Shown here in pieces: positions 13,701 to 63,231 of a stretch of DNA of 64,000 bases; the first letter of the stretch is position 1; each line of letters opens with the position of its first letter. A program made the translations under genes and the position numbers. The DNA is from Gymnothorax reevesii (lineage: Eukaryota > Chordata > Actinopteri > Anguilliformes > Muraenidae): NCBI GenBank assembly GCA_029721435.1, contig CM056584.1:11075895-11139894 (forward strand), written 5' to 3'. The notes beneath the pieces are model-generated. The model saw only the letters and a list, made by a program, of their open reading frames with translations, ran no database searches and was not told the DNA's origin.

Positions 13701-16700
13701 TTAAGCTGCTGCGCTCAAGCGCTAATATCCTGTCAAAACCGAGTTAGGGTGCGTCTGCCATCACTGCAAGCAGGTTGCGCAGATTGGCATGAAATCACAC
13801 AAAGTCAGCTTGAAGAGTCTATTAAACTGATATAAGGAAACAACAATGACAGAAATGTAGTAAATGTAGTAAACGTAGCAACAACGAATGTAGTATTGAC
13901 AGAAAAGCAACATGTGTCATTGGAAAGATGGCACTGAACACAAGATCAGTATAGACTAAGCTCAAAATAAGTTTAAAGGAATACTGTAAGTCCATAATTC
14001 AAACCCCAATTCCAATGAAGTTGGGACGTTGAGTAAAACGTGAATGAAAACCGAAAACAATGATTTGCAAATCCTTTTCGACCCATGTTCAATTGATTGC
14101 ACGCCAAAGACAAGATATTTAATGATCAAACTGATAAACTTCACTGTTTTTTGGAAATATTCACTCATTTTGAATTTGATCCCTGCAATACATTCCAAAA
14201 AAGCAGGGACAGAGGCATGTTCACCAAAGTGTTACATCACCTTTCCCTTTAACAACACTCAAGCGTTTGAGAACTGAGGACACTAATTGTAGGAGCTTTG
14301 TAGGTGGAATCCTTTCCCATTCTTGCTTGATGTACGACTTCAGTTGCTCCACATTCCAGGGTCTCCGTTGTCCTATTTTCCGCTTCACAAAGCGCCACAC
14401 ATTGTCAATGGGAGACAGGTCTGGACTGCAGGCAGGCCAATCTATTACCCGCACTCTTCTACTACGGAGCCAGGCTGTTGTCACACGTGCAGAATGTGGC
14501 GAGGCATTGTCTTGCTGAAACAAACGGGGACGTCCCTGAAGAATACGTTTCTTGAATGGCAGCATTAGCTTCTCCAAAAGTTGTATGTACCTTTCAGCAG
14601 ATTAAGTCGTGAACGGCCTTTCTGTGCAGAGTTTGCATGTTCTCTCTGTGTTTGCGTGGGTTTCCTACGAGTACTCTGATTTCCCCCACCCACAAAAAAC
14701 ATGCATCACAGGGACACTCCAACCAGTACCCCTGACCAAGGAACTAGCTTTAGAACTGGAGTTGGTTCCCAGGCTACGCTCTGTGCGTGCCCACTGCGGC
14801 TAACTATAGGATGGGTCAAATGCAGAGGATGAATTACCCCACGGGGTTCAATAAAATATATGATGCCTTCGCAGATGAACAAGTTACCCACGACATGGAC
14901 GCTTACACATCCCCATACCATCACAGATGCTGGCTTTTGAAATTTGCACTGATAACAATCTGAATGGTCCTTTCAGTCTTTAGCCCGGAGGACACAACAT
15001 CCAGGATTTCCAAAAACAATTTGAAACGTAGACTCGTCAGACCACAGCACACCTTTCCACTTTGCATCAGTCCATCTCAGATGAGCTCGGGGGCAGAGAA
15101 GCTGGCAGCATTTCTGGGTGTTGTTGATATATGGCTTTCACTTTGCATGGTAGAGTTTTTACTTGCACTTGTAGATGTAGCGATGAACTGTGTAAACTGA
15201 CAGTGGTTTTCCGAAGTGTTCCTGAGCCCACATGGTAATATCCTTTACAGAATGATGTAGGTTTTTAATGCAGTGCTGCCAGAGGGGCCGAAGGTCATGG
15301 GCATTCAATGATGGTTTTCAGCCTTGCCGCTGATGTGTGGAGATTTCTCCGGATTCTTTGAAACTTTTCATGATATTATGGACTGTCGATGGCGAAATCC
15401 TGAAATTCCTTGCCATTGCACGGTAAGAAACGTTGTTCTAAAACTGTTGGACTATTTGCTCAAGCAGTTGTTCACCAAGTGGTGAACCTCACCCCATCCT
15501 TGCATGTGAACGACTGAGCCTTTCGGCGATGCTCCTTTTATACCTAATCATGACACTCACCTGTTTCCAACTAGATTTAGTCAGTAAGCATGGCTTACAG
15601 GATACCCCCAGCAACAAGTAGTCGGGCAGTACCACAGTCAATAGACCTTCCAGCAAGAAAAGAAATTTTCAAAATCGGATGAGTAGGTTATGAGATCAAG
15701 GTCCAGACGCAGAGACGCACGCGCACACACACGGACGGACAAAGCAAATCCAGAATACCCCCCTAAACTTCGTTGCGGGGGGTATAAAAACTTTGTTGCA
15801 GGGGGTATAATTAACCTGTTCACCTGTGGAATGTTCCAACAGGTGTTTTTTGAGCATTCCTCTACTTTCCCAGCCTTTTGTTGCCCCGTCCCAGCTTTTC
15901 TGGAACATGGTGCAGGCATGGTGCAGCTATAAAGTTTATCAGTTGGAACATTAAATATCTTGTCTTTGTAGTGTCCTCAATTGAATATTGGCCAAAAAGG
16001 ATTTGGACATCATTGTTTTCTGTTTCTATTCACATATTAAACAAGAGTAACGCAGAGTGTGGCATATGCCCCCGCCTGTTTGTTGATCAAGGGCATATTT
16101 AGATGGCTGCTGTGGCGGCCATATTAGATTGCACGACGCTGGTTTTCGAAAGGAACCTTCCTCTAGCCCCTCCCAATACGCCATGAAGAAATGGCATCAA
16201 TCCGACGAGGGATTCTATAGTTATCCCACGGAAACGAAAAGTTAACGGACAATGGACGGACGGACAGACATGGTGTCGACATAATGCCCCCATTCCTCTT
16301 TGGAGGGCGCGGGCATAAAAACGTCCCAACTTCATTGGAATTGGGGTTGGTAAAAAAAAATTTAAATTAATAAATCTAATGAAGGCAGTAGGAGCTGATA
16401 GTGCTGTCTCACGCTGATGATGTAAAGGCAAAGAACCCCACTGATAGGTCAGTAAGGAGTGGAGGAAGTACCTTGGGGAACCTGCACGCGGTTCATGATC
16501 TGATTTGGCACGTTGGGCATCGGCACAGGTCCATCTGAGGGGAACAGGGGGAGGGTGGAAGAGAGATGGGAAATGATTGCAATCAGTGCACAGCGACACA
16601 ATCCGAACAGAATGCAAGTGAACAAACATATTCAGAGCATGACTACAGGTTCTTTGTACACACCAGACAGAGCAAGAAGTGTACTGCGAAGACCAGAGCT

Positions 16701-19700
16701 GAACACAAATGAACATGCACTTCTCACTATTCTCAGGCTGTCACTGCATTTTCAGCATACAGCAGTGTACTACAGCATAAGGCTGCGCGGCGCAGTAGTA
16801 ATGTAGTCTGCAGAACAGCAGCGGACTACCGCACTGTACTCCAGTGTCGCTAAATGCAATGTGATGTCGTAGGCACTGTATTCTGAAGTTAAACACTCTA
16901 CGGAGCAGTATTCCAGTGTAGCCCAGTGCAGTGCAGGACGACAGTATTTTGCACAGAAACAGTATACAGTGCTGCACTCCACAGTAGCACACTGCAGTAC
17001 CGTAGTTAGGGAGTAGGCAATGCAGTAGTTCAGAGAGATACGTGCCAGTACGGGTCGGCCGAGGAGCAGACTGCATTTCGTAGTTCAAGGAGCACCATGC
17101 AAGTTTGTTCACTTTCACCTCTGCTGACATTCGAACTCAAGCAAAACAGTTTGATTTGCGGTTTGTGATGCCAGTGCGGTCACCAGAGCCTGGATTTTTT
17201 TTACGGTGAATTTAGGGGCAGGCAACTAAGCGGATCGTGGAGAGATGTTGGCGAATTAAGACAAAAATATAATCGTGCAGAAAGTAAACAAACTTGCATA
17301 GTGCACTTTTAAGAGTGCTAAATTCCAGTATAGCTCAGAGCAGTATCTTGCAGGACTAATGCATGTTGCAGAACAGCAGTCTATGGTGCTGTATTCCAGT
17401 GTAGCTCAGTGTAAGTGACGCACTGGGCCCAGAGCGATACAGGGGAGGTGGGTCACTCACTGGGCGGTCTCCCGGCCTGTGCCCCGGGCCCCAGGGCGTT
17501 GGGCTGGGGGAGTCCAGACTGCGGGGCTCCTGCGGGGGCCATGGGGGGCTGCGGTCGTATCCGCGACTTTCGCTTTTCCTCCAGCTCCTTCTGAATCTTG
17601 TAGATCTTCTCAGCCAGGAAGTGATAGTACTCATCCTGCAAAGAGGAGGGACAGGCGAGTCAGAGACCGGGGCAGGAGGGGACAGAACACGGACAGAGCG
17701 GGACGAGACGGGTCGAGACGGGGAGAGCTCGATCGATGCCAAACAGTGACGTACCCTGCTGTTGGCTGACTCGTACATGTCCCCCTCCACCTTCCGAGCG
17801 TACGCCACCAGGTTCTCCATCCGCCGGTCCTTCAGGGCAGCGGGGTCTGGGGTGGGGAAGATGGCTTGTACACTGCAGGGAGGAGGAGAGAATGAAGGGA
17901 TGAGTGTGAGAGAGGGAGGAGAGAGAGAAGGAGCGGCAGATTGAGGGAGAGGAGAGGAAGGGGAGGGCAGAGCGAAATTGGGGCAGAAAAGAATTTATCG
18001 GCAGGAAAGTAGAAAGATAGGAGGAGAGAAAGAAAGAGTATGAGATAGAGAGAGAAAGAAAGAGTATATGAGAGAGAGAGAGAGAGAGAGAGATTAGAGC
18101 AGAAGAGGTTGAGTACAGGTATGATGTCCAGGGGTCAGTCTGGCTCATAATACGTTTCATCCACACATTAACTCAGCAGGGTAATTTCACAGGTTCGTCT
18201 GAAGAATCCTGTCAATCCCCCGGGGGGGATCAAAATACTGGGGAGGAAAGTTAATTTCAGAGCCCAAATCTTTCATCTGTTAGTGAATTTTAAACCTGTA
18301 AGATTGAAATTCACACTCGGGAAAGTAAAATTTACCCCCCGAGAGTGAATTTCACACCTGTGAGATTGAAAAGTACATTTTTACTTCTGAGCTTAGTTTT
18401 TGTTAGCGAGCCACACAGCCGTGATTTGCACGGCTAATTAAAAAAAAAAAAAAAACGGCAATAAAAAAAAAAGGTGCCGCAACTAACTCGTTAGGTTACG
18501 TTTGTTTCAAGACTTTTAGCTCGCTATTTCAGTGTCAGCGATGTTTAGCCTTTTAACCCGATAACCAGTTGGGTATCTACCTAGCTAGCTATTGCATTAC
18601 AGAGTTCGATATCAGTTTTGCGTTGCAAGCTATGTTGCTAACTTGTTCGCTATTTCAGTAGCCTATTAGCGATAAATTGACTTTTTCTTGTGTGTTTATT
18701 TTATGGGCTATGTGTAGGGTAATCACATTCATTGTAGTGAACGCTAGCTAGTTGACAAGCTGGCTTGCAAACTAATGCACAATTCAGCATATTTTCCTGG
18801 GTACCTGCAGGTGTGGAGGACAAAAGTCAGTCGTTTCCTACTCTCGCTACTGGTTGTAATGATTTGGTCGATCGGCGCAAGTTGAGAACAAGGTAACCCG
18901 AAATCCGAAAAGCACGTAAAATTTTTAAGGGGGTCTTCGGGAGACCGAAGGGGACATTCAAAATAGCCTGCTTTCATAGTATATCTGCATTAACAAGCCC
19001 AAATAGCCTGACGTGACATAATGGCGCTAGATGAAAAAGCAATCTTAGCATCTGTGTTGCTGGCCAACCATTCTGTCCACTCTATCTTGCTGGGTGGAAG
19101 AAGTTCTCAATTCTATTGTTGCATTATCACCAATAAATTGTCGATTTTTTTCTTGTGTGTTTATTTAATGGGCTAGTTATATGTAGGGTAACCGTTTTAT
19201 AAAAGGAATAAGCCCCTTGAAGCACTGGGTTACAGTGATTTTATAACGGCGGAGGGGCACTAAGGCACTCCACTGCACGTCGTGCCTTAGAACGCCCCTC
19301 CGTTGTTATAAAATCACTGCAACCCACTGCTTCTCGGGACTTATTCCTTTATTTCATAATTTGTCTCTCACCTTGTCAGTAGCTAATTTTGGCTAAATCC
19401 ATCTTTTTTTCGCCAAAGCTAGAAAAGCTAAAAAAGGTGTAGAATGCATTGACAACAATAGAAAATATAACAATATATCAGTGTATTGAAGAAAAAACTA
19501 AGCCAATGTCTTGTGCTGAAATGTAATATTTTGTCTTCAGAAGGCACCATTTAGGTCCTGTTTTTAACCCCGCCCCCCCTCCCCCGCCCGGCGCCGGTTT
19601 CAATTAACACCAAATTATCAGCACACCAAAAACTTTTTTTTGCACTCCCAAAATTTCTAATCTTACCTAAAACTGTGCTTCTGAGAGTGAATTTTACACT

Positions 19701-22700
19701 TGTGAGATTTAAATTTACACCTGGGAAAGTTAATTCTACTCCTGAGAGTGAATTTACACCTGTGAGATTTAAATTTACTCCAATGAGAGCGAGATCATTA
19801 AACCAAACCGTAACAGCCTAGCTGAGACATCAGCTGAAGTATTCAGTTACCTCAAGAGAACTGAGCCGATTCAGCATGCAGTACTTTTAGATTTTTTTTA
19901 AAAGCATCAACTCTTTAAACCAGACTTTACATCTTTTAACCCTTTAGATGCTATGGACGTATGTGAGCCATGCACTGCTGAGGACAAATATCGATTCCTG
20001 CCGACACTATGGACCGTTAGGTTCTTGATGTGATCCAGAAAGCTCTGGAGTGACGGGCTAATTTTCGCACTCACAGTTTGTGCACCAGGTGGTTGCGCAG
20101 GTCCTGAGTGACGTGCTCGTGCCAGGCCTTCCTGGTGCTGCCCGCGGACAGCGGGTTGGCGGTGGGCAGATTCCCCATGGAGGCGCCGCCCGACCCGTCC
20201 GACATCAGCTGGCTGCGGGCGCAACCAAAACCGGAAGTGTCAGACAATTAGCATGTTGCATTAGATTTCACATTAATATTTCCCCCCGCCTTACACAACA
20301 TCCAAAAATAAATAATAAAAAATAGCCCCGCAAAGTGGGCATTACCCCTCAGCCCCTGGATTGTTTGGAACGAATATAAATTGACAAAGGCCTTTTCCAA
20401 GTTATCCCGCAGAATACAAAATTCAAGATTGCGGCAGCACTGGACATCTGAATGCCGTCAATTTCGATTGGGGGCGGGACTCACCTGGCGTTGAGCGAGG
20501 AAGGGATGGAAGTGTCAGAGTGCTCCGATGTGGCTCCGCCCATCGCTCCGCCTCCCATGCTCATCCGGTTGGCATCTGTGGAAGAGAGCGGTAAGGCTCG
20601 GGACTGCGGGTCATGCAGACACACGCATACAGATCGACTAAGCCCAGTGGCTAAGATGCGTGACTGAGACACAGGGATAGAGGTTCAAGCCTTGATGTAT
20701 CCACAGTAACATGAGTGCAGTTGTTGGGCCCTTGAGCAAGGCCCTTAATCTTACAAGAGTTTGACTGGCCCCAACCTGGTCAAATCAACTAACTCACTTT
20801 GAGAGAGCATCAGCTCAATGAGTCAAATACAATTTTTCAAAAATTACTATTTCCCGTCAAAAAAAGTTCAACATAACAATAACAAGGACAAAAAGTCAAG
20901 GAGCAAAGAATATGACAGTTAATTAATAAAGAAGCAATTTTTATCAGTGCATATCATGTCTACAGTATTTATCCAAATCAACAAACAGCGAGTGCCAAAT
21001 GAAGGTCACTCAAACAGCAAAACAAAATAGATCAGACAAGTTAGAACTCATATACGGTATCAGTCAACCCGATCACATAAAGTAATGCTTACACAAAATG
21101 ACAGGTAAAAGTTAACTTGGCTGCAGCTCCATATCATACAGTAGGGGGGTGTCACGATTATTAAAAAGCCATCATTGTAGAGAAAGACAAATGCATTCTG
21201 ATGTTACCGAGTGCGTTGATGGGGCGCATCTGCTGCGGTAGCTGCTGGGGCGTCTGCGCAGACTGCTGTCCGGCGCCTGGCTGCGGCTGCGCGGAGGGCT
21301 GGTTGCCGTAGGGAAGGCCCAATGCGGCGTAGGCCCTCTGCATGGAGCTGGGGTCGATGGGCGTGGCACCGCCGATGGCGGGAGCCGCCTGCTGGCCCGT
21401 GCCCCCCACCTGACCGATGGAGTTCTGCATTCCGGCGCTGGGAGAGCTCAACATGGCTGTGAATCGATCAGGAGAGACTGGGGTGGGTTTCATGTGAAGG
21501 GGTTTGCAACCACACACACGCATGCTTTCAAACGCATACATACACGAGGTGCTCAAGTCATCAGAGACACTGCCTGCAATAACAGCTTTGTGAGGATCAC
21601 AACAATGTTTTGTTGAGCCCGGCTCAAATATGAATCAATAAAATTCCACTGTGATGTTGTTTTGCGGATATTTGCAACGATTCTTCACCTTCAAGCAAGT
21701 AATTCAAACAAAATTAAATTTTTTCAGTTTTTTTTCTCCCAATTCATGTTTTAAAGCACTTTAACAGGACAGAATAATATTATAATGTATAACAAATTGT
21801 TGTATTTGTAGGGTGGGTGAAGCTATTAATAATTGTGAATGCACAGTTATTAAATCTACCAGTATTGCACCGGGCACTTTTTGGTATTTGTGGTCTTGTT
21901 TCTCTGGCTACTTAATTGAGAATGAGACGTCGAACACAGTGAATGTGACGCCAAGAATGAACACACAGATTGTGAATTAGCACTAACTCATCAGCAAATC
22001 ATACAGGGAGATGACAGGTACAGATGGCGTCAGCCTTTCGTCAGCCAGGGGGTCGGATCCATTGGCTACAACTGAAAGGGAACTGCAGTCTCAAGAGGGC
22101 AAAAAATGAACATTTTTTGCAGCTTGTCTCAATTAATTTGCACCAGGGTTACCAAGTGGTCGCCTGTCCCTGTCGGACAGCTTTGAATCTTAGCCGTTGA
22201 CCTCCTTTGGAGTTGCCATTTCTGGCTGTTGTCAAAGTTTTAGACACTGTCCCCCTGGTCAATTTTAAAATGTTTACCATTATTGTGACGGGCCCTGCTG
22301 GAAACCAGACAGGTCGGTCACCCGCGACAAATGGGTCACTTTTGGCTTATTTTTGACACAAAATTGCCTATAATTTGGTGAATTATGTTACTGTGGCAAC
22401 CAAAATCTATAGGTGCGGTGTCCTCACTACTTTTTACGTACATAGCAAATATGAAAGAAATTGCTTTATATTTATATTAAGTTCAAGTGAAGAGACACTA
22501 CGCATCAAAAAGGCATAATCAGCTGCCGGGTCGGCTCACTCGGTTAAGGCGCAGCAATTGCGGTGCAGTAGTGACTTCTACAGCGCGGGTTCGATCCCTG
22601 GTCGTACCAACCAGCAGTGGCCGGCAGCTTTTTCAGAGCAGCGCACGATTAGCTGAAGTGCTGTAGGGATGCAAATTGGGAAGGGACTGCTGGGAAGGAA

Positions 22701-25700
22701 AATTAAAAATGGTTGCCTTGTTCGTTGCTCAAGCCCTTTCTGTTGGCCAGCCGGGCGCTCGACAGTGAGATTCTGAGCTTGCTCATGTTCGGGGAACCTT
22801 CGCCCTCGTTCTGACCTTGCGATAGTTTCAACCAATGAGTGTAAAGATGCAGGGGCTGACAGGTGCGTGCTGCGGAGGAGAGCCACGAACTCTTTCTCTC
22901 CTGAGCTGGCAATTTGGGGTAACAAATGAGCAAACCTTGGACATAGTTCTTAGATTGGGCATTCCAAATTTGGACGGGACTGAATATGCCAAGATTTAAA
23001 AAAAAAAAAAAAAAAAGGCATAATGCACTATTTGTCCGATTGGGGAGTCTGTGCAGAATGTTAATCACATTCAAATTGTGAGGAGCCAGGACAGCAAAAT
23101 TTCAGCATTAAATTTATGTCAAAATTCAAATAACCCAAGGGGAAATAAAACTCGACAATCAGATGTACGGAAGAACCATGGTTAAAAATTTCCAGCATAT
23201 TTGGTGCAGAAATCCCAACAGAAGGGCTGCTTCTGAGAGAGTCTGAGCTGAAGCAAAACTCCCAGCCTGGGATTCTAAAGCAGGGCATTTAAACCTGTCA
23301 CAGGCAATGTGGCCAATCAGGAGGCTGGACTCTACAGGGCTCCTCCCCTTTCAGCATCTCCAGGCTGAGCCCCTCCCCCCCAGCTCTCAGATGTCTGGCC
23401 CTGTCGGAATCTGCTCCGCAGCTCGCAACTCCTCAACTAGGCCTGCTCTGCTCCTGACAGCCTGCAGATGGCGCCTCTAATGCCGCCGGACAGGCTCGCT
23501 CCAAGCAGCAGCTGGGAGTGCTCATCTCTCCAGTCAGCGGGCCATTTAAAGCATTTTTTAAAATGTCAGAAATAAAGCCGTGCGTGACGGCTGGTGAAAT
23601 TGGAGAGCAGCGGGCGGCTCGGCGGTCGCGGGAGGGCCGGGGTTGGCGGACACTCACGCTGCTGGTTCCTCTTGTCGCTGGCGTTCTTCAGCGGCAGACA
23701 GACGGGGCAATCTTGCCGCGTGCAGTTCTTCCAGTGTGAGATGATCTGACGAGAGGACGCACAGTGGGCCACTGCAGGGGAGAGAACAGGTTTTGATAAG
23801 GACAGGCATTTAGGAGAACACATTACTGAGAAAACACTGGTTTGAAAGCACAGACAATAACCGACCCCAATCATATCACTGGGTGCACCGCAACTCAGCC
23901 ATTAAAATCCATTTCAGAATCTGTCCTGTGTGACATCACAAGGGGAAGGGATCAAACCCAATAACGAATGAACTGATCAGTTGGCTGGCTGAAGGTGATC
24001 AGTTCTTCTGGTCAGCGGGCAGCCACCTCACCACATGGTGTCACAAGGAAACGGACCGAGCGCAGGTACTGAAACTGCCAGGCACATACATTTCTTCTAT
24101 GAAACTGATGGTTAACTGCTGTCCTCCCAAGTTTGAGCAATGCATTTGACAGTTTTTAATCCCAATCCAGTGATTTCAGCCATCTGCCTGATATTCTTTG
24201 TTTAATGTCGGCTAATATTTTTGCCCTCTTGATAGAGTGCCTTTTCCACTACAATGGAGTGCGTCCTTCAACGTGGTTGATGAAGAGGAGAGATGCTACA
24301 CGCTGCATCAGTCTGTCTTAAATGAATTGTTGGCAGCTAAAACATTAATCCCTGCAGCAAAGGAGCAGTAACCCTTGATGCAGGCAAGCAACTAATGTCG
24401 TAATAGTAATTGTTCCTGTAGGACATAACTGTATTCTGAATGTCTATGAGGAGGTGGAAGAAATATTCAAAAGATAGGAGTTCTGAAGTCTGAAACGGAG
24501 GAGCAGACACTGAACTAGAGGCACTCATAGACTGCAAACCTCCGCCAAGGCAGCACAAACCAAATCTTCATGAGCGTGTCATACGATTTCAAGATGGCTG
24601 CCGTGGCGGGCATATTGTTTCACTGATCACGGTGAAAATCGATATTTTCCATCCTTGATGTAACAGCAATCCACCCACAAAATTTCAGCCAAATCCGTGC
24701 ATTACTTTGAGTTATGTTGTTCAGAAACAGACAGAAACAAAACGGGCGAAAACATAACCTCCGCCCCAACTTTGTTGGCAGAGGTAACGAATCATGTCTC
24801 CCATAAAACCTGATCTGCCATCAGCCTGGAAAATCAGGCTAAAACAGCCAACAGGGAATATTTCATAATAATTGAATACAAAAAAAAAAATTTCTAACGT
24901 CGTAGCAACTATATAAAATCAAACAAACTCATATGAACATGAATACAGTCAAGAAATGCTGCGTATGAAATCACAAAATGTATATGATGAATTCCTGTGT
25001 TGTCACTCAACCATCAAAATCTTCCATTTCATATCAATACAAATACACAATGTTGCCAGTGATAAATAAAGAAGACCTTTTCGAAATTCAGAATTTAATG
25101 TTTTCATCATTCGGGAGGTCAAGAAGAAATGCAGAAAATGGAAAGCAAGCCGAATCCGAAGATTCAAACCTTAGAATTATTTTATCCCTTTTAATCTTTC
25201 TCATGGCTCTTATGAGAGTAATAACAATTTAATCCAAAGGGAGATGTCTGCCGTCAAATGGTCCCCAAATTTAATTAAAATCTCAGCCTTGAGTGCCAAA
25301 CTGCAAAGAGATCTAACTATGTTTGTTTTCTTCCAACTCATCACCAGGCACAGGTGATAAAACTAGGAAGAGTGAGTAGGGCAAAATACCCGCATCTCTT
25401 CTCCATTTTGCCATTAACCAAACAATTTTGAAAATAAATTTCCAATTCTTCTAAGTATTAAAAAAGCAATCAAAAAGCCCTAAAAGATTCATACAACAGT
25501 GGCAAATTGTATGCTGTTCTGTTTGTTAGATTTAAATTATTTTCACTGAGTTGAATTTTCCACTTTTGTATGTTGGGCATAATTAAAGACGACAACTCAT
25601 GGACTTTGCTTGAATTGTCGATTTGCCGGGCATCCAACATGACCAACGTCGCAGGCACAGACAGAACCACAGCGATGGTACAACCTCATTATGTCGAAAA

Positions 25701-28700
25701 GGAACAGTTTGCTTGTGGATTGATCGAAAATTGTGACATTTGTAAACAAGAGTCATCAGAAGATGACATATCCCACCGGTTCCATATAATTCGTGATTTG
25801 TGGCAGAGTTTTGGAATTCTGCGGTAGAAAAGGGACAAAGTCCAATTTTTGGGCTGTTTTTGGTATAGAAATGAAAAATTTTGGGCACAATGGAACTACA
25901 GCATAAGAGTAAGTTCCATACTGAATTTGAAGTTTCTAAGTGGCATTAGTTTTTGAATTCTGTCCTGGAAACGAGACAAAGTCCAATTTTAGGGCTGTTT
26001 TTGGTGAAAATTTCCAAAATTATGAGCAGCATGGAACTGAAACCCCCAAAAGGCACAACTACGCCATAAGAATAAGTTCCATAGCAAATCTGAAGTTTGT
26101 AAGTGGTATATTTTTTGAGTTCTGCTCCGGAAATGAAAATGATTACGGACAGACGGACGGATAAATTTTGGGCACCATGATTTCAAAATGCCCAAAAGGC
26201 ACAATGGGATCACTAGAATAACATGCGTACAAAATATGAAGTTTGTAAGTGGCAGAGTTTTTGAATTCTGCTCTAGAAAAGGGACAAAGTCCAATTTTTG
26301 GGCTGTTTTTGGTGTAGAAATCAAAAATTTTGGGCAGAATGGAACTGAAACCCCCAAAAGGCACAACTACACCACAAGAGTAGGTTCCATACCAAATTAG
26401 AATTTTGTAAGAGGCATAATTTTTGAGTTCTGTCCCGGAAACGAGACAAGGTCCAATTTTAGGGCTGTTTTTGGTGAAAATTTCCAAAATTACGGGCAGC
26501 ATGGAACTGAAACCCCCAAAAGACACAACTGCACCATAAGAGTAAGTTCCATAGCAAATGTGAAGTTTTTAAGTGGCATAGTTTTTGAGTTCTGCTCCGG
26601 AAATGAGAATGATTACGGACGGACGGACGGACGGACGGACAGATGACTATATCCCACGGTATTCCATACCGGTGGGATAAAAATAATGTCATTACAATGG
26701 AATTATGATAACTAACATTGGCGTACAAAATGACATTGATGAAATCATTCTCTGTTGTGCGTAATGGAGTTTGAGTTTGCATTATTTATAATTTCGCAGA
26801 CTGCATTACATAATATGGGAAGATTACACTAAGTTTTTAACAGCCAAATTACATTCATTTAGTTTTCATTACAGTTTGGAAACCGAACAGATAGGTTACT
26901 TTACAATTCCCTATTCATTTCAATCATCAAATACGTTAAAACATAATAACCCTTTGCCTTTGGTGCAAAAGTTTGTACCATACCTCAAAACAATTACCTG
27001 GAAGTAACACATTATTTAAAATTCACACCATAGAAATAATCTCTCAATTTTAGCCACTTAGGGAGGTAGGGGGCAGCTATTATTTGCCTTGACAGATAAT
27101 TGGTTGATCTGATCACCCTCAGAATTGGCACTCTTCTGATTTAAGATCCAGGAAATGTACTTGTTTGACTGCCCAGCTACTTTTTGTTTTGCAGTATTTC
27201 ATTCTGAAACAATTTCGATGTTGAATCTTCGTGAATTTTTTTTTTTGCGGCACAAAATCACAAAAACAAACAAAAAGAAGTTTTAATTCCAAATGATATA
27301 AGTGTCAAGATTCATTGAAATCACATTTTCCAGTTCCTCTGACGCTCAACTGTTGAGTTATAAAGTCTGAAACATCAGCCACACACACGCAGGCAAGGAC
27401 TGGCTGGATTAGGCATCTGTATCAAGACGTTAATCACAGCAGTAATGATTCAATCGTGCTCTTAAAAATTTGCTCATTTAAATCAAAACTGCAACTTTCT
27501 GGCTTGGTAGTGTAGGAAAATGTGCATTAATGAGGACGTGGGTGACGAAGTACAGACACTGAGCGAAACATACACCAATAAACATGGGGCGTAGACAGAA
27601 TAGCCTTCAATGAGCACAAGTATGAAGGAACGCAAGCACAGGGGTTAATATGGAGCTAGTGAGAGTTACAACATTCATTAACGAACAGAGGGGAACGTAC
27701 GACTCAATTCAACAATTTTTTGACAGCACAAAGATTTTCATTTGGTATTTGGCATGATCATTAGGGGCCTTACTCAACGCCCTGGGGCCTGAATCTCATT
27801 CAGGTTTTGATGAAGGGGTATCTGGGCAATGACTTCCTTGGTAATTCTTAATGACTTAATACGATCATCGTCATCTGTTCGAGCCAGTTTGGACCTCCTA
27901 GACTCTGACCTCTCCCAAATATCCCGGTCCGACACTGCTGCAGGTGGTTCTTCTGGAAAGCCGGCCATGTGGTCCCGTAGTTGGAACGAGGTAGGTGCCT
28001 GCAGGGAGCACCGCCAACAGTGATGGCACCGTGTTCCTGCTGTTGCAGAAAGAGGATGCCAGCAAGTTCTTTGCTGCGCCTGCACTGGCCTGCAAACTGT
28101 GGCCCTCTGTCTGGGATAGTCCCGGCAGAGGTGGTACACATCCGCACAGGTCTGTTTGTTGGGTGGTCTTTCCAAGAGAAGTTCAGCGCTACTCTTAGCA
28201 AGCATGTAAAGACACCAAGTCTCAGATTGGAGTTTCGCTCGTCAGTGTTCAAGATGTTGACCCACAGACCACAGGCTCGCCCGCGGCTTGAGAGAAGTTG
28301 TGCTTCAGGTTAAATAGAAGGTTAGATTTCCTCACTCGGTCCTATTATAATTATTATCATCACCATCATCAGGAGAGTAAAAACTGGTCCTAATGTCAAA
28401 TTTAAAGGCATTTTTCAGCTCCTTTCAGACAATATTATGGCCACCCCAAAAGATAACAATTTAAACAGTTGATGTAGACAATTAAAAAATAAAAAATAAA
28501 AAAGCAGGACAGATTCCCACCAGTTTCACCAACATTTGCAGCAAATTTGGCCCAGGGTTTCAAAAATCAGTGGAGATCATCACTACTTATCAGGACTGGC
28601 ATCAGTAATTGACTTAACTACTGAACATGATGAGTGCCAGCAGACTAAATGAGGTACATGTAAAATTATAATGCAAATACGGAAGCTTTCAGACCAATTA

Positions 28701-37700: not shown

Positions 37701-40700
37701 GTTACCACATACACCGCATACAAATGATACCCCAAATACTGACTTAGTCAGAAAAACAACAAAATCTCCATAACAATCGGTCAAATCACTTTCAAAATTG
37801 CAGGTCACTGGTTCTCATAATAACAGGAGCTGGACTCGCGAGAACCCTTACCTCCGCCAGCATAGCTGGATTTGAACTTTGGCCTGCATCTCAGCTGCAG
37901 TTAAGCCTGGATATGCCAAAATTTAATCACTTGTTTCTCTTGCGCTACTTTAACATCGTACAAATCCTAAAATCTAAGCAGCCGTTTTTGAGACATCCAG
38001 CAAAAAGACAAACAAATAAATAAACAAACTGAAGCAAAAACATAAAACTTCCTTGGCAGAGGTAATAACGCAAACCAAGTTTGGAAAAAAAAAATCCACT
38101 GTGGGGTTCAGGAAAAAACCTCTGAACACTTGCGATGAAGGACGGATGGACAGATGGAGGATAGCAGGACCCAGCTGCGGAGAGGGAGGTATAATTCCGG
38201 TGCATAAGGGCTGAAGAACAGCGAAGCTGAGCAGTTTTTTGAAGACGAAGACTTGGCCGGGTTTAGGGCGGCCGGCTTCTCTCCGCCTAACTGGCCTGTC
38301 TCTGTGAGTAGAAACAGAGCGCTCCGTCACTCCGAGTCGGAATAATCGTCCGCTTCATTAAAAAAGCCGAAAGACGGAGCCAGTAAAAATCCGAGACTCT
38401 GCTCGCGCGGAGCAGCCGGTTTATCTGAGCAGCCAAGCGCTTGACTCATCAAATTACAGTGCTTGGGGTTTTTACACAGAGGGGGGAAATGTGCTCTGTG
38501 TACCCATTAGGTAGCTGCCTCTTTGTTAAGCAAAATTATTTATACAGTCTAAACATTTGCAGAATGCAAAGCCCAACAAGCCCCCTCTTCCACAGAAGTG
38601 CTAGCATTTTGGGCTAACGAGCATGAGGCTAGTCATGCACCTCAGGTCCTGTGCAGCCCCCCCCTAACAAACCCCCCCACCCCAGCTCCCTGGCGACACG
38701 CGTAGCGGAGGCCTCTGGCAGCTGACAGCGGTACGGCAAAGCAGATAAAAGCGGCGGCTGAGCAGAGAGGGACCAGCTTTCGGCACAGCTGAGCGCTCCT
38801 CTCCCCCGACATCACCCCCCCACCCCCCCAGCTCACTGCTGCGGCTCCGAGCCAGAGGAAATCTGTATTCAAGCGGCCTTCGTCTCGCTCTCCCTCTCCC
38901 ACACACACTCATCCGCCTCCTTCCCCCACACGCTCCACTTCACATGATTTACGACATTTGTCTTTAATGGCGCTCGGAGAGAGACAGACCAGAGACACCC
39001 TCTGCGAAGCACACAGGAGCGCTCAGACACAGGCACAACGTTCAGCCCATGACTCATTTTAGCGGGGCCAAGGTACTTTTTTTTGTTGTTGTTTTTTTTT
39101 TTTGGGGGGGGGGTGGGGTGTGGGATGAAATGTCAAAGCATGGTCAAATGACAGATGGTCAATAAAAATGTTTTCTGGGATAGCTCAAAACATTTCTTGA
39201 TAAATACAATTGAAGAATGCCTATGTCTTTACGATAAATATTGAGGGAGGTGTCAGAATAAAACTTGACAGTTGAGTATACTTCATCAGATTAAAAACTT
39301 TTGGGGTAAAGGAGAGATCTTGCAAGAATAATTTACAATTCCAATTTTTCTGGTTTTCTTTGTGAATGACCCCACAACTGACCTTTGTCTCGGGTCTTTG
39401 CTAGCAATGACATAAATAAACTTGGCCATGGTAAACAACTTAATTTTCTGGGCGTGGTCTCAATCAACGTAATGGGGTGAAATTACAGAATGCAATGTCC
39501 AATCATCAAAAAACCTCAGGGTTAACATCTATGGAGAAAGCAGCTTAAGACAACAAAATTTGTTGTCAATTAGCCGATCGGTGGCCCTCTTTGATGCAAC
39601 AATGTAAAAGTGCCTCAAACATTTGACCTATATGGTTTTGCTGACAGCATCTCTCCCTGAGCCCCTAACAGTCCTTCCAAAGAGCAAGAGAAATCTTAAT
39701 AAACATAGCTGCTGTTAGCCAATCAGGTAACAGCTGCTATTTGACAAGCGGTGCATTGACCAATCAACATGAAACTTGCAGGACAGGGTACACAATGCAT
39801 AATTTTGAACCATGAACCAGAAATTGTTAAAAAAAATTGCCTTGACCTTGTTAATTGTGGGTTGTGGTTATAGTTCACTTTTTTCTTCTGTTTGTTTGAC
39901 TAATATGACTGAGTAACAGGCCGGGGTATAAGCAATCTCTTGATGTCTCGTTTTAAAAGACATTGAAACAAAATAAGCGCATCATTCATTTAATTTGGTA
40001 TTTATAACAAAAACACATTTAACAGTTTGGAATAAAAACTGTCAAAATGACCACTTCTGGCACTGACCACTTCTAGTAGTTATGGAATTCTATCACTTCT
40101 CGAGTTCGCCCCGGCCAATTCTCACTAGCTTTGCACAGCAGCTCCCAAGTTCAATTATCATCATGGAGCAGAGTTCTCATGACAAATAAAATATTCACGA
40201 ATGCTTAATAAGCGTTGTATATGGGTGTTTGCACAGCATTTCCCATTCAAAGATGATTTCAACTCGACGCTGCATAAATAATACTTCCTTTAAGTCAACC
40301 TTATGCACGTGCGGTCTCAGGATGCTGACAAAAAATTTACACACACGCGCGCATCTATGTTAGAAGTCATGTGAGTCCGCCAAAACTGAGTTGAGCTACA
40401 CACTTTCAGATGCATATACATACGAGAATGTGTGTGCGACGTGACCTCTGACTTTTCTCACCACGCACGCACAGCCATTGGCACCAGACACTGCAGAGTG
40501 CGCACGAGCCGGTCCGTGCGTAAACGAGCGCTCCGCTATGGCCCAAGTAGGCCCTGTGCATTTTAATCAGCCTCTGTCACCACTTGTAGCCGACATGGCA
40601 AACGTACAAGGTAAACAAGCGGTCGGCCAACTACACCTGATTTATCTTCAATCAGACCATTCACACGAAGCCAATGGAGGTTCTAAATCTCCCTTCCACT

Positions 40701-45749: not shown

Positions 45750-45802
<53 letters not shown>

Positions 45803-49660: not shown

Positions 49661-49694
49661 AATTTAAACAAGTGAAGAAGAGAGCAGAGCTCAC

Positions 49695-49793
49695 ATACCC
49701 CCGCTTTATATTTTTAATCCGGACGCACAGACACACGGACAGACGGACGGACGTGCGGCGCGCTATATACCCCCCGACTACCTACGGGGTATA
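49695..49793. mobile_element. hairpin-ended element H6 (short)
   Basis: The 5' motif is ATACCCCC at 49695-49702. A GGACGCACAG...GGACAGACGGACGGACG run follows. The hairpin arms are TATACCCC (49766-49773) and GGGGTATA (49786-49793). It is the smallest copy and appended to the end of the composite SINE. Confidence 0.6.
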
Positions 49794-51045: not shown

Positions 51046-51059
51046 GTAAAGAGCTGATT

Positions 51060-55510: not shown

Positions 55511-56769
55511 GTAGGGCATCATGATACTCATACCATGATACTCATACTCAAAAAAAAAAATACTTGTGAATACATCAACAGAATTTTGTTGATCAAATGG
55601 CAAAATGTGCAATGGCACTTGGCAACTGAAAATTGGAAAGTTGTGAGTCACGCCTAAAATATTGTGAAATAAGCCATAGGTTTCCAGCAACACATCAGAT
55701 TTTGTTTGAAATGAATTTATTGACCACATTGGTACAGTGAATAAAATGTTTAGATCGGAAATAAATAACTGTGGCATGAAATCTTCAGCCAGCTGAATTT
55801 CTGAATTTCAAGCGCCTCTGAATTTCTGCTTGCCCGACAAAATTTATACTTGTCCCGGGTGCTCTGAACAGAGATTTTGCAAGCCCTGTAGTGCAGCATT
55901 TTGCAACACAGGACAATACTGTGCTGATTTCAGTACCAAATTACTAGGGTGCAGTAATCAAAATGGGATGTGTCAGAAACTGGCTCTAACTGTGATGACC
56001 CAGTGCTGATTGGTCAGAGATGCAGATTGTGAACTGAAAACGAAAACATAAGACATTAGAAGGGGTGTCAGGCAGGAAGGAGCGCCTACGAAGCGAGTGA
56101 GAGATCGAGTGAGCAGGGCGACCTTTTTCACAGCTGCACAGCTGGGCGTCACTGTGGCTTGTCCGCAGCCACTTACGTGACATCACACTTGACGCTCTCG
56201 TGTACCAAAGCCCTGTGGCCTGAGGCAGAGCTTTTCCGAGAAAGCCCACGACAGCATTTCACCGCCATGCAGCCCTGATTGTAAGAGGTCTGTCCCCACA
56301 GGAGAGCGCCCCTCAAGAGGAAAGCATTCAGTTATTCTTCATTAAGCAAACCAACATCTTTAAGGCTGGAGGACCAAGCGGAAATAAGGCAGCACCAAAT
56401 TAATGGAAATAAATAAAATGAAACCACCATCAGTTTACCGACCCAGAGTGAGATCTAAACAAGTTCCAGCTCTTCTGAAGAGGGGCAAGGAACCTGATCC
56501 AGATCGGACCAGCTTGGGAGTAGGATTTCTTTCCAACCAAACAGAGTCACACTCGATTCTGCTAATCATGGCCCAGAGGGACATCTCCCATGCCCAATTG
56601 GTGGAATCAGGTGTGATGATGCTTGAATATAGCGAAAGCCAGCACCCACGCTGGCCCCATTCCTCACACCTGTTTAGGGCAGCAAGGACCAGAGGAAACA
56701 GACAGATGATTTAAAAGGAAAGTGTTCCTTCCTGCAACAATATGAATTCATTACAGACGTTAAATTGCC

Positions 56770-56945
56770 ATTTTCAAAGTGACTTACAGTTGATTTAACT
56801 AATCAGAGGCCAATTCCCCCAAGGATAAACATGGGGTGCAATGTTCTGCTCTAGGGCCCAACAATCTGATTGCACCAGGGATTAAACCACCAATCTCCTG
56901 AGCCCAAGTCCAACACCTTAACGACCAGGTGACTGGCTGCCCCAC
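56770..56945 (-). mobile_element. tRNA-derived SINE (minus strand)
   Basis: Reverse-complement reading gives a tRNA-like head with GGTGGTTTAATCCC (B-box-like) and a GGGCCCTAGAGCAGAAC phrase, then a 3' part ending CTGTAAGTCACTTTG. This layout is common in fish SINEs. It is diverged. Confidence 0.55.
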
Positions 56946-58591
56946 AGCCTGGGAAATTAAAGACCACCAACAAAAATGCTTTGATTCAACATTTCTGCAA
57001 CATCCACTGGCGTGCAAAACCTTTCGTAAAAAGCGGCTACATCACAGCGAAAGAGCTCTCTCTACAGGCACTACATATTATTCAGCACTGGCATATTCAC
57101 CAAGTGATTGAAGCAGTCCAGCAGAGACAGATCACATTCACAGCTTAGGGCCTGACAACACTTATCGATTCTTTGGAGGACGAGTCCAAACCACAGTCAA
57201 TAAACACACCGACCACCAAACAGTCTTAAACGAGGGATACTGTGATTGAGCGATTATTGTAGAATGCTATCCGGTCCAATCAATGCTATGGATTACATGA
57301 CTGCTGGATGCTTTTTGCGCAAACATTAAGCAAATGTACAGTTGCTACGGTTTAAGAGCCAGTGGCGCCCATGATGTGTAGAAATCTGGCCACTTGAGGA
57401 GGAGGGCAGAGGAGGCAAATTGGAGATTCTCCTTTTAAGAAAAAAAAAATTCCAAGATGTGCATTTCAAATGCACTATAGATTGTGTAAATAAGAGCTCG
57501 TCAGGATTTTTCACTTTCAGAAAACTAGGCCTACTATGGCGTTAGAACACTACCAAAGATTGTGTGAGCGAATGAGACCTGTGCACAACATCCGCGCGCA
57601 TGAATCAAACATACGAGGAGAAATGCATTCTCGCAAAACTATTTACGAGCGCTTTCAAAGAAATCGCCAACAATATTGTATATTGTATCCTGCATTTTTG
57701 CTCCCTCAAGCAATATTTTAGCCTGCGAAGAGAAATTCATGCTGCGAATGGGGTTGTTTTTTTTTACGTTACTACCATAGGTTTGTTCGAAGTGGGGGAC
57801 TTCAAATGCGGCTGGCCAGCTAAATTTGACTTTTACTACAATGCTAGTTTTGTTTTCAAACAAGAAGTTAGTATGTCATTAAATGAGAAAAAAATGAATC
57901 CATGCAGATGTTGAAGGTCCCTCCCCTGAAGACTCCTGACTGTGATGCTGTCGTCCCTTCACAACAGAAATTGGAAGACATGTGACCCAAGCTTTGCAGA
58001 AAACAAAAGTCTTTCACTGACTTAAAGTATGTAAGTACAGCCTGCAATGCCGCACACCAGTTTCCTGACCAGAATTTTCACAACAATTTTCTCAGTCGCC
58101 ATGCATGATCTCAGACTGTTATTTCCAAGTAATTACTTTTGAACTTATGTTACGTTTAGATTCAGTTCACTTTACCTTCGCTAAATGCTTAACCATAAAA
58201 TTATTCAAAGCTTGATAATGAGCGAGTCAGTACGGAGTAGTTGTTAAAATTGCACTGAAGGAACCAAGCGCAGATCAGCAGAAAATGCTTGCAGGGCTTT
58301 TAACAATGAGCTGAAAACAACAAGGACAACTTGTGACAGGCGCACAGACTGGAATAGCGGTCAGAAAGTCCATTCAGGCTATCGGCAAACAACGTCAGAA
58401 ACAGTGATTCTGCACCGTGTTCATCAACAGTTCAGGGTCAGATGTTGGGTAGTCAAGATGATTTGTTAAACCTGCAGAATAAGGCCTCCACTGTTGCCCG
58501 GATGGGAGTGGGGTCTGTCTCTGCTCTGAAGGCATCTCGAGAACAGGGAGAGGCTGTACCTATTAAATTGCACTAGTTGCATCAGTTCTAC

Positions 58592-60130
58592 TAAAACCCA
58601 AATTCCGAAATAGTTGGGATGAAGTGTAAATTGTGAATAAAATCAAAATGCAATGACTTTCAGATCACACAAGCCAAATGTTATTTACAGTGGAATATAG
58701 AGAACATTTCAGATGTTGATACTGAGACATTTAACATTTCCATCCACAAAATTAGCTCATTTTAAAATTTCTGGTTGCAACAGGTCTCAAAAAAGTTGGG
58801 ACACAGCAAAAAAAGGGCTGAAAAAGCTATTAACATAGAAGAAAATTAGCTGAAAGAACATTTAGCAAGTAATTAAGCTACCTGGCATAAGGTGTGTAAC
58901 ATGATTGGCTATAAAAGGGATGTCTTAGAGAGGCTGAGTCTCTCAGAAGTAAAGATGGCCAGAGGCTCTCCAACCCGTGAAGGCTTGTGTAAAAAAATTG
59001 TGGAAAACTTTAAAAACAATGTTCCTCAACTTCAAATTACAAAGGCTTTGAAGGTCTCATTATCGACAGTGCAAAACATCATCAAAAGATTCAGAGAAAC
59101 TTGAAAAATCTCTGAGTGTAAGGGAAAAGAAAGAAGACCTTTACTGGATGCCCATGATCTTTGGGCCCTCAGACACCACTGCATCACTCACCGACATGAT
59201 TCTGTCATTGACATTACTAAATGGGCCAAGGAATACTTCCAAAAACCACTGTCTGTAAACACCGTATCTGCACAGATGCCACCGAAAACTCCATCTTGCA
59301 AAAAGGAAGCCATTGTTGAGCATGATCCAGAAGCGCCGCCATGTTCTGTGGGCCAAGGCTCATTTAAAATGGACTGTAGCAAAGTGTCCTGTGGTCAGAG
59401 TCCAAATTTGACATTCTTGTTGGAAATCATGGTCGTCGTGTCCTCTGGGCTAAAGAGGAGAAACACCACCCCTCCTGTTATCAGCGTTCAGTTCAAAAGC
59501 CAGCATCTCTGATGGTGTGGGACACTTGCATGTTTTAAAAAGCACCATGAATGCTGAAAGGTATACAAAGATTTTAGAGCAACATATGCTCCTCTCCAGA
59601 TGACAACTATTCCAGGGAAGACCTTGAGTATTTCAGCAGGACAATGCAAAACCACATACTGCAGCTATTACAACGGCATGGCTTCATAGTAGAAGAGTCC
59701 GTGTGCTGAACTGGCCTGTCTGCAGTCCTGATCTTTCACCAATTGAGAACATTTGGCGCACAATTTAACGAAAACTCCGTCAAAGGAGACCCAAAACTCT
59801 CCAGCAGCTGGAAGTCTGTATTAAACAAGATCAAATCAAATTCCAATGGCTAAATTCAAGAAACTTGTCTCCTCAATGCCCAGACGCCTCCACTCTGGGC
59901 TAAAAAGAAGAGGGGATGCTACACCATGGTAACCAGGCCCCTGTCAAACTTTTGAGACCTGTAACAGCCATCAAATTGGAAATTCTCATTTTGTGGATAA
60001 AATTATAAAACTTCTCAGTTTCAACATTTGCTGTTATCTCTGTTAAAAATACTGGCTGGTGTGATTTGAAAGTCATTACGTCTTGATTTTATTCACAATT
60101 TATCCCAACTATTTCGGAATTGGGGTTGTA
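58592..60130 (+). mobile_element. Tc1-like element E
   Basis: The left end is AAACCCAAATTCCGAAATAG and the right end is CTATTTCGGAATTGGGGTTG, then TA. The inner arms share GTGAATAAAATCAAAATGCA. About 1.54 kb, same subfamily as A and D but in opposite orientation to D. Confidence 0.85.
58955..59932 (+). pseudogene. Tc1-like transposase of element E, with stops
   Basis: It starts MARGSPTREGLCKKIVENFK with helix-turn-helix text QLQITKALKVSLSTVQNI. A TGA interrupts just after RFRET near 59102, where element A has GGA. Later frames hold the QQDNA and PIENIW catalytic text and a C-terminal tail ending RRGDATPW. The E in PIENIW is the usual DD34E residue, unlike element B. Confidence 0.75.
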
Positions 60131-60497
60131 CTTCTACCTAGATCACTGAAACCGAGAGCACTAGGACTCAAGATAATGAGCTGGCTAGGAAACTTCACTC
60201 AGGCAGAACAATCGAGCAACAATTTACACCGACTTAGCGACTTATACACACAACATTAATCAGTGGGATAGGAAATGCGGAGGGAAACGAGAATGGCAGG
60301 TGGTAGACTGAGTAGTTCTCTCAACTTTTAGAGGAGTGAGAGCGATTGGTCTAATTAATGCAAATTAACTGATGAGTCAGCCGAATGTGCATAAGAACTT
60401 AGGAGTGAACAGAGTCTTTGGACATACTTTGGGAACAATCTTTGCAGCATACTCAGCATTCAACAAAATGGACCCAATATTTTTGGAGGTAATTAAA

Positions 60498-60690
60498 CTA
60501 GGGCTGTCACTATAATTAATCGCGATTAATTTAAGCACTATAAAAGTAACTTCCACTAAGAGGCAGACAGACGAGCTTGCTTATTACCTTTCCTATGACA
60601 CTCACCTAATGCGGTCATTTGAAAAGCTTCCGGGAAGAAAACTGTGATTTGAAGTCCACTAATTAGCAGCGAGGTTGGACAGCCTCCATC
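60498..60690 (+). repeat. hAT-like dispersed repeat, copy 3
   Basis: It starts AGGGCTGTCACTATAATTAA and TCGCGATTAATTTAAGC, then GAGGCAGACAGACGAGCTTG and CCTATGACACTCACCTAATG. It is the longest head of the three copies. Confidence 0.55.
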
Positions 60691-60793
60691 ACCTTGGCAT
60701 AATTAGCTCACCTTAAATCAATTCCTGTGTACTTTGCCTGACTTGCAATCAAGCCATTTATTCAGCCAACTGACACATCAAAACCAAAACTGC

Positions 60794-60797
<4 letters not shown>

Positions 60798-60855
<58 letters not shown>
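60798..60855. repeat. TA microsatellite
   Basis: An uninterrupted (TA)n of about 29 units in intron 1. Confidence 0.93.
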
Positions 60856-60857
<2 letters not shown>

Positions 60858-61914
60858 CTGCTTGCGTTCTATGCTCAGTAAAGCCGCTTACATACTGGTT
60901 CCAAAACGAATTTTTCGCACGACTGATTACAGTCAAAGTCAATGTTTATTCTTTGGTTTTCTTCAGTTGTAGATGGACTAAAGTCTTTTTTCGGTCTTTT
61001 TTGAAAATTAGTTCGATGGATTGAACAGATTCACGCTTTATTTCCACACCAGAGATAAAATAGGGTGTAAATAAATAGTGCTTGTAGTCAGTGACCAAAT
61101 CAATTCCATGACCATTGACATTGTGAATTAAATATCACATGCACCATAAAGACTGTCCGACGCGAAATGCTGCACGTCCGGCAGCCAGCAAAAAGTAAAA
61201 GTATTGATATGAGAACAGATTTCTAAATGAAAGAAGAATAAAAATATACCACCAACAAACAGAACATCCAAAAAAGATGGCCCGCAAATAAATAAATCGC
61301 AGTGTTTATTGGATGTTCCGTTCGTTGAAAAAATGTTTCTTTTTTATTCTTTATTTCGTGATCAATGTGTTCAAATTGTCCTCTTTTTTCGGCTGTCAGA
61401 CAAAGTATTTTGCAATTAATGTTCGACAGGCATTGTACATCATCCCGCGCCAATGTCGACTCACTTTATTGAGCAGAGCTTAAACATAAACACTGATTGA
61501 AATTCTGGGTACTCATCTTAAAACAACTGAGCCCTCATCAAAACTTTCACGCTTAATATCTAAAAGATTCAGTAGATTTGAAGAAATTAAAAACTATAAT
61601 CAACTGTTGGACATAAGTTATACTGAAACCATCCGATTGTCAGACACGGAGATATTTAAACCCTGTCCGACTTTCGGGCACTAAGACACTGCATTCAACG
61701 CAGCAACACAATCTGTCGTGCAAAAAATTTGTTTTGCGTCCAGTGTGCAAGCGGCTTACCCCTTTGCGCGGAATACAAAATTTTGCCAATTTTTCCTGTT
61801 GTGCATGAGCCTATTTAAGCTTTAGAACTCAGGATTTGTGACACAGAGATTTTTGAAAATTATTCAAGTGAAGCTAGACATTTGGAAATTCAATTACAGA
61901 ATTGTTTAGGAATT

Positions 61915-61970
61915 AAATTTTGGAATTTACGGACGCCGGCGTCTACATCTGCAGAAAGGGGTTAATACTA
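61915..61970 (+). repeat. dispersed repeat shared with 34.7 kb
   Basis: GGAATTTACGGACGCCGGCG, TCTACATCTGCA and GAAAGGGGTTAATA match 34675-34765. Confidence 0.5.
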
Positions 61971-62160
61971 CTATTATTGTCACTTTGGTTTTATCGTTTT
62001 TAGTGGGGGAAAAGAATACAGCCTGATTGCTATGATCTCGTACTGAGTTAAGATCACATATTGAAAATAAATGTGTAACGTATCTTGCATTGTTGTCCAT
62101 GCATGTAAACGACAACATTTTAAGCAGCAACAGGGTGTAACAAGTCAACACTGTCAACAA

Positions 62161-62638
62161 CATCCCCCACCAATCGTGTGCTTCTAATTTTCACTCCATC
62201 AAGGCCTTTATGGTCTGAAGCTACACACCAAATTTGTTTGTCCTATCTGCAATAGTTTCCGAGAGAAGTTGTCCCCTTTCTCTCAGACGAACGGACGCAC
62301 ACACGGAGGTCAAACCTATATTCCCCCCCCCCACTTCGTGTTGGCGGGGGATAATAGGAACATGCTATCCATCCATCGTTTCTCTTCCCAATGATGCAGG
62401 CAGAAGAAACAAGTCAACATGGTCTACAACATCCCCCTCCAATCGTGTGCTTCTTATTTTCAAACTCCATCAAGGCCTTTATGGTCTGAAGTTACACACC
62501 AAATTTGGTTGTCCTATCTGTTATAGTTTCTGAGAAAAGTTGTCCCCTTTCTCTCGGAAGGACGGACAGACGCACACACGCACGGACGGAGTTCAAACCT
62601 TTATCCCCCTTCCGCTTTGTGTTGGCGGGGGATAATAA
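62161..62638. mobile_element. hairpin-ended elements H7 and H8, tandem pair
   Basis: Two copies with a period of about 269 bp share CCAATCGTGTGCTTCT, CCATCAAGGCCTTTATGGTC, ACACACCAAATTTG, GTTGTCCCCTTTCTCTC and a GGACGGACAGACGCAC-type run. H7 has the 5' motif CATCCCCC (62161-62168) and ends GGCGGGGGATAATA (62343-62356). H8 has the 5' motif ACATCCCCC (62429-62437) and a hairpin of TTATCCCCC (62601-62609) with GGCGGGGGATAATAA (62624-62638). Confidence 0.75.
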
Positions 62639-63231
62639 ATGAGTAACCGTTATTTCATTCCAACTTCATAAGTTTGAATGATCTGACATAGTTTTCGTTT
62701 TGAAATTCCATTCAAGTCCGCTCATGGTAATAATTCGAGAATGCCTCATATTCATAATGCTTAATATAGAAGTAAGCGGTGGAGAAAACCAGCCTGAAGC
62801 GGCAAAGTAAAATGCAACATTAACGAATCATGCAGATATAGGACAGAGGCTTCTTTATTTCAACACTTTAAAGGTGAGGAGAGGAGCTCATTTTATTGGT
62901 GAAGAGTTGACTCGGCAGTGTTAATACCACTTAAGCCTTTTCTCCTCCCTCTTTGTTACTTGTGCCGGAAGGAGGGACAGAGGCGTACTTGCGCCAGGCC
63001 TCACCGGGCACGAAATTGCAACATACGCCTGGGACACACCCCGTTGGCGCGGCGCTCCCACTATTCGCAGCGCCCGGTCTACGAATTTAGAGCCCAAAGA
63101 GTAAGTTGAGCTATTGCTTGATAATTTCCTCCACAATAATTTTCCTTCCTTGAGGAACTGATGCCACTGTTTATATGGACTTTAATGGAACTGTATTGTC
63201 ATTATCCTATTTTGATTCTTCTTGAGATTAA

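Follow-up and report, generated by a model that had tools for sequence, protein, structure and literature searches.

Short elements in a moray eel genome with the anatomy of DINE-1-type non-autonomous Helentrons and family-specific matched ends

INTRODUCTION

The window analyzed here, a stretch of 64,000 nucleotides from Gymnothorax reevesii (G000:C12:11075895-11139894, in a genome of 2.17 Gb and 421 contigs), contains a series of small elements that share a plan rather than a sequence, raising the question of what class of transposon they represent and why the short motif found at one end of each recurs at the other. A first-pass annotation had described at least eight of them (H1 to H8), had placed them by analogy among the Helentron-associated non-autonomous elements (HINEs, such as DINE-1 of Drosophila), and had read their matched but changing ends as a co-evolved recognition signal. 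Using copies collected from across the genome, we conclude that H1 to H8 are very probably non-autonomous Helentron elements of the DINE-1 type, inserted on the minus strand. This kind of element is already known: the plan is the published DINE-1/HINE plan, and each family has its own short signal at both ends, as in insects and oysters. The interest of the locus lies in the exact ends, a possible family-specific target base, and arrays built from 5' ends.

RESULTS

Element polarity and anatomy

At least eight elements on one plan are present at or near the annotated places, with agreement between motif and arm that can be read directly, the H5 hairpin excepted. The polarity, however, had been reversed, so the 3' palindrome had been misplaced. 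On the minus strand, the elements show the order published for DINE-1 and for oyster HINEs: a T-rich flank, a motif beginning with A, a loop, a complementary arm (weak in H5), a GTCY-type run, a body, the complement of the motif, a palindrome, and CTWGTT. What had been called the 3' hairpin is therefore the 5' end of the element, made up of the 5' subTIR, an inverted repeat, and the GTCY microsatellite, and the supposed 5' motif corresponds to the 3' subTIR, after which come the palindrome and the CTWGTT terminus.

Families were defined by homology of the body and their edges by where that homology ends; each genome search scored the best 40 of its first-look candidates, so the figures below are not copy numbers. 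Coordinates are those of the window, and all eight elements lie on its minus strand. H1 (15569..15808; consensus subTIR ATACCCCCCGCAAC) was delimited by edges among the best 40 of 2739 candidates, a consensus of 8 copies, and an empty site in L050. Its alignments start near query position 50 in nearly all places, and of the 39 other places, 31 end at 291-298 and 8 at 263-271; the two classes arise from a second 5' unit that many copies possess, among them the window copy, in which two tandem 5'-end units place an inner 5' end at 15785. For H2 (16040..16316; consensus subTIR ATGCCCCCGCC), 20 copies were read and equal-length empty sites were available; among the best 40 of 2245 candidates, 39 of 39 other places begin at query 30-42 and end at 319-328 of 361. 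H3 (24513..24785; consensus subTIR ACCTCCGCCAA) runs from about 44 to 318 of 361 in most of the best 40 of 3273 candidates, three of which begin at 105, with consensus ends from 9 (5') and 10 (3') copies.

H4 (25745..26678; consensus subTIR ATCCCACCGGT) was placed by genome-wide edges, the ends of 10 copies, and their consensus; among the best 40 of 1598 candidates, full-length places extend from about 45 to 984 of 1031, several with extra internal repeats. Inside it are tandem repeats with units of about 162 bp as well as (ACGG)6.5, its 3' palindrome (GTCATC-TTCT-GATGAC, 25752..25767) lies between the 3' subTIR and CTCTTGTT, and its microsatellite, ACGG on the plus strand and GTCC-type on the minus strand, lies beside the 5' hairpin (26615..26640). 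Limits were taken from the window alone for H5 (37822..38063), which is of ACCTCYGCCA type with a weak hairpin and a putative 3' end CTCCTGTT, and for H6 (49667..49792), which is of ATACCCC type and has GT, not TT, as the two bases preceding the 5' A. H7 (62139..62352) and H8 (62408..62633) are HINEs of one family, ATCCCCCGCCAA, and their joint search returned 4057 candidates; for H8, the best 40 of these were scored, and 22 further copies were read in 20 loci. Divergence from consensus among the best-scoring copies was 2.5% for H2 (20 copies) and 8.1% for the H8 type (19 copies). L009 (G000:C19:30109700-30111300) contains three H8-type copies, all in one orientation, of which two lie head to tail a few bases apart.

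The low ends given by genome-wide alignment edges were 15569 (H1), 16039/16040 (H2), 24513 (H3), and 25744/25745 (H4). The annotated starts of H1 and H2 were 2 and 5 bp inside the elements, but those of H3, H4, H7, and H8 were 20 to 24 bp inside, such that the palindrome and terminus had been left out.

A common body is found in H7 and H8 (84% identity), and the other elements share the purine tetranucleotide run and short pieces. The run near the 5' end consists of GTCC/GTCT pieces in H1, H2, H4, H6, H7, and H8 and is of the GTTT/GTCT type in H3 and H5. Perfect 3' palindromes are present in H1 (GTAAGC-CAT-GCTTAC) and H3 (GCACTC-TAT-GAGTGC) as well as in H4, and palindromes with one mismatch were read by eye from the consensus of H2 and H8. 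A 25-bp piece (92% identity) lies in the otherwise unrelated bodies of H2 and H3 (window 16101-16125 and 24592-24616) and looks like a candidate YY1 site. Elsewhere in the window, repeated TTTGACCTT/AAGGTCAAA hairpins at about 5360-6360 suggest another repeat element, and there are Tc1-like and CREBBP-like stretches of kinds familiar from bony fish. Rfam gave no match on the window at gathering scores, and two exact patterns of the element ends gave none in viral contigs.

Agreement of the two ends within families

Within the window, the hairpin arm agrees with the element's own 3' subTIR at 8 to 9 of 9 positions in H1, H2, H3, H4, H6, and H8 (H7 was not tabled) and at 4 of 9 in H5. The annotated grouping of motifs was right for H3 and H5, which are of one type, and nearly so for H1 and H6. 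The consensus of the H2 family contains the motif ATGCCCCC unchanged, and the window copy is mutated in its outer arm.

Consensus ends were built from the best-scoring copies of five families (5'/3' copies: H1, 8/8; H2, 20/20; H3, 9/10; H4, 10/10; H8, 22/21), and with 8 to 22 copies per family they contain the annotated motif. The 5' and 3' subTIRs are exactly identical over 14, 11, 11, 11, and 12 bp in H1, H2, H3, H4, and H8, respectively, whereas exact prefixes between families extend for 1 to 5 bp. The motif differs between families and agrees within each, in line with what had been proposed, and the two ends covary across the five families. When 3' ends were paired to 5' ends in all 120 possible assignments, the true pairing scored 59 and the best of the other 119 scored 46 (57 versus 50 when matches in the first 12 bases were counted), 1/120 being the smallest fraction that five families can give. 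The inverted repeat matches the 5' subTIR of the consensus at 8, 8, 8, 7, and 7 of 8 positions in H1, H2, H3, H4, and H8. Pairing by this arm gave a thin margin (38 versus 37); the arm separates families weakly, and by itself it does not tell H4 and H8 from each other or from H1, another family's subTIR fitting equally well.

An exact 8-mer scan of the window for hairpin arms repeated upstream found 7 on the plus strand and 5 on the minus strand, above the null of 1.33 per strand (maximum 6) in 100 Markov sequences; the 7 plus-strand hits comprise two annotated elements (H1 and H4), two hits in the internal repeats of H4, and other repeats. A looser detector applied to the window and a further 200 kb gave 11 matches, no excess over null counts of 6, 7, 7, 2, and 11, although seven of these matches are real or likely elements. 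Neither scan was taken as proof, and the main support therefore comes from the multi-copy consensus. A pairing test on nine elements from the window and samples, in which the observed sum was reached by 4 of 200000 shuffles (and by 1 of 5040 when seven of the nine were used), was not relied on because the elements had been picked for their matching ends, making it circular. The loose detector also returned a further candidate HINE family at L031:7237-7898 (subTIR ATATCCCCGAACGC, end CCTAGTT), and a stricter detector returned another in L037.

Insertion sites and target bases

A target duplication of 5 to 20 bp had been named in advance as evidence against the proposed class; none was seen at the five insertion sites with empty paralogues (H1, H2, H7, H8, and L022). 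H7 and H8 sit in host sequence that is repetitive itself, and among its copies H8 is absent from L018, H7 from L017, and both from L042, a locus with two H3-type copies. In the orientation of the elements, the empty sites are CTCATTTATT^TCTTCTGC and CCTATTATT^ACACC, and the filled sites differ from them by the element ATCCCCC...CTTGTT; the second comparison uses the filled L018 site, the window copy being three flank bases shorter. Presence and absence among the window, L017, and L018 fit no simple tree, and exchange between copies or loss is needed to account for them. For the H8-type insertion of L022, L039 provides an empty paralogue (TTATT^); L044, which is more diverged and has CATT, not TTATT, before the junction, was left unused. 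The H1 empty site in L050 reads TAATT^GGGAACAGG and was kept despite a joined match of 71%, a figure that includes an extra 23-bp end unit, because the bases beside the junction align cleanly. Comparison of H8_L010 with window 48057 as an empty site was dropped (70% alike, with the junction itself unclear).

For H2, the joined flanks found an equal-length match at 40 of 40 scored places (86-90% identity). The five bases before the junction in the 10 empty sites read were TTGTG in six and TTGTA, TTATG, TTTTG, and TTGTT in one each. The filled copy has TTTTT at this position, and TT immediately before the junction occurs in 1 of the 10 empty relatives (TG in 8, TA in 1); the T run may belong to the element, or the host copy that received it may have been a variant.

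Host TT is present at the H1, H7, H8, and L022 empty sites. Across copies, each of the two bases preceding the element is T in 21 of 21 H2 copies and in 23 of 24 H8-type copies. Base -3 is T in 17 of 21 H2 and 8 of 10 H4 copies, and A in 21 of 24 H8-type copies, although not all 24 are independent, since H7, H8, and the copies in L017 and L018 occupy two shared sites. It is also A in seven H1 copies (six rows and the L095 array), in L029, and in the window copy. At the H7, H8, L022, and H1 empty sites, this A was already in the host.

Tandem arrays of the H1 5' end

The H1 family carries its own 5' end as a 24-bp unit, ATT^ATACCCCCCGCAACGAAGTTT, in 1 to 45 tandem copies: one in L097, L098, and L029, two in L099, L101, and the window (15765-15810), three in L096 and L100, and 45 in L095 (positions 121-1201 of G000:C1:48565150-48566620). 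Every unit junction has the sequence TTTATT^ATACC and so contains a full start, TT included; the arrays are a minisatellite of transposon start sites. They may have originated by exchange between two TTTA stretches, one in the flank and one within the element, and the repeated starts could then travel with the element.

Autonomous Helentrons

Profile searches across the genome gave 126 matches to PF14214 (Rep), some of them pieces of one locus; 69, counted from the table, lie in frames of at least 1500 aa, one with an internal stop. Rep motif 2 is Helentron-type in both of the two typed matches (FYRIEFQQRGSPHVH and FFRVEFQARGSPHIH), fitting the published signature. L051 encodes OTU, DUF6570, and Rep domains and its continuation L074 encodes PIF1 and Exo_endo_phos; read as two adjoining pieces, they place a Helentron-type Rep motif, a PIF1 helicase, and a C-terminal endonuclease in one frame. 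No element ends were recognized near L049/L050 or L051-L053. The first-pass annotation had called for an autonomous Rep/helicase element with the same ends, and none emerged at the 2 of 126 Rep matches where window subTIRs were sought, in part. Rep matches in long frames (many of 2500-2900 aa) also form same-strand clusters at C2:79.12-79.35 Mb, C10:17.05-17.41 Mb, C11:35.88-36.32 Mb, and C358, with neighbors about 16 to 120 kb apart.

DISCUSSION

All five families with consensus ends have subTIRs with a complementary inverted repeat, a GTCY microsatellite, a 3' palindrome, and TT before the element, without target duplication at the sites compared; a same-end partner is the one HINE feature not identified. 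The class proposed for these elements is thereby upheld. Canonical non-autonomous Helitrons, which have a 5' TC, a 3' CTRR with a palindrome about 11 bp from the end, and insertion between A and T, share the rolling-circle features and the lack of target duplication, and the CTAG or CTTG at our 3' ends resembles CTRR. They are nevertheless a very improbable identity for elements whose 5' ends begin with A after TT and carry subTIRs with an inverted repeat and whose empty sites (H1, H7, and H8) do not lie between A and T. Short, non-coding sequences with subterminal inverted repeats could also be cut-and-paste MITEs, as such elements were formerly annotated according to the available portions of PMC4067079 and PMC2374699, yet the inverted repeats do not occupy both extreme ends, and the five sites with empty paralogues lack a duplication, leaving this reading with even less weight. 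Least credible of all would be SINE-like retroposons that carry a hairpin and end in a microsatellite, which would suit the small size and many copies but not an internal microsatellite, sharp ends, and the absence of target duplication.

A different question is what caused the ends to match. Each family might simply descend from one founder, with no co-evolving protein involved; agreement within a family then counts as one event, five families are few, and a general A-N-CCC form is common to all of them. We consider this explanation unlikely, although it deserves consideration, since both ends of each founder changed to the same new motif over 11 to 14 bp, which unconstrained drift would not give. 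The pattern behind the proposed co-evolved signal holds, with the recognizing protein a presumed part of it, and recognition by a co-evolving Rep is the likely cause of the covariation as judged from sequence.

A likely mechanism can be proposed from an anatomy of host TT^, 5' subTIR starting at A (11 to 14 bp), loop, inverted repeat, GTCY microsatellite, variable body (with tandem repeats in H4), 3' subTIR, palindrome, and CTWGTT^ host. A Helentron Rep (an HUH nickase), acting in trans, would recognize the family motif as a 5' hairpin and nick after TT, with rolling-circle synthesis displacing a strand as a putative single-stranded intermediate. At the 3' end, the motif would be recognized again by this Rep, which, together with the palindrome, would terminate after GTT, and the strand would be joined 3' of a TT, leaving the target unduplicated. 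If a single protein reads both ends, the joint change of the motif at the two would be explained. Which autonomous family would supply this Rep to which HINEs is likewise conjectural.

A bolder and rather doubtful idea is that the specificity of Helentrons is modular and changes as one unit, with the motifs at both ends and base -3 changing together (A for H1 and H8, T for H2 and H4), a Rep or a nucleic-acid guide near the hairpin setting both end recognition and target, and the H1 5'-end arrays acting as iteron-like natural multi-start origins that seed satellite DNA from the initiation end. The occurrence of TT at 1 of 10 H2 empty relatives weighs slightly against a family-specific target. 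We found no description of tandem 5'-end arrays or family-specific target bases in the literature searched, as far as its text was available, which is not proof of absence.

The coexistence of five subTIR families of DINE-1-type HINEs in one genome provides a test set for how a transposase of the rolling-circle type and its end signal change in concert, the ends of some families are placed to the base by empty sites, and the 5'-end arrays represent a concrete route from a transposon end to satellite-like DNA.

Compared with known systems, the elements resemble the HINEs of mite, mosquito, and flies in their subTIRs, 3' palindrome, T-rich target, variable T number, and lack of target-site modification, and in the presence of Helentron proteins in the genome (available portions of PMC4067079). 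That account, in its available portions, does not settle the division of the flanking Ts, whereas at the H1, H7, H8, and L022 sites here the left TT belongs to the host and GTT is the end of the element; it also differs in that no same-end partner was found here at the 2 of 126 Rep matches examined in part. Cg_HINE of the Pacific oyster is alike in its subTIR, complementary inverted repeat, GTCY-type microsatellites, and palindrome, and its partner is unresolved too; its tandem central repeats are comparable to the repeats of about 162 bp in H4, the only one of the eight window elements in which a tandem repeat finder detected a central array (available portions of PMC7492417). DINE-1 of Drosophila has a like order of parts (available portions of PMC2374699); in contrast, the present elements occupy another host and have other subTIR sequences, with five subTIR families side by side and the ends of H1 and H7/H8 fixed by empty sites.
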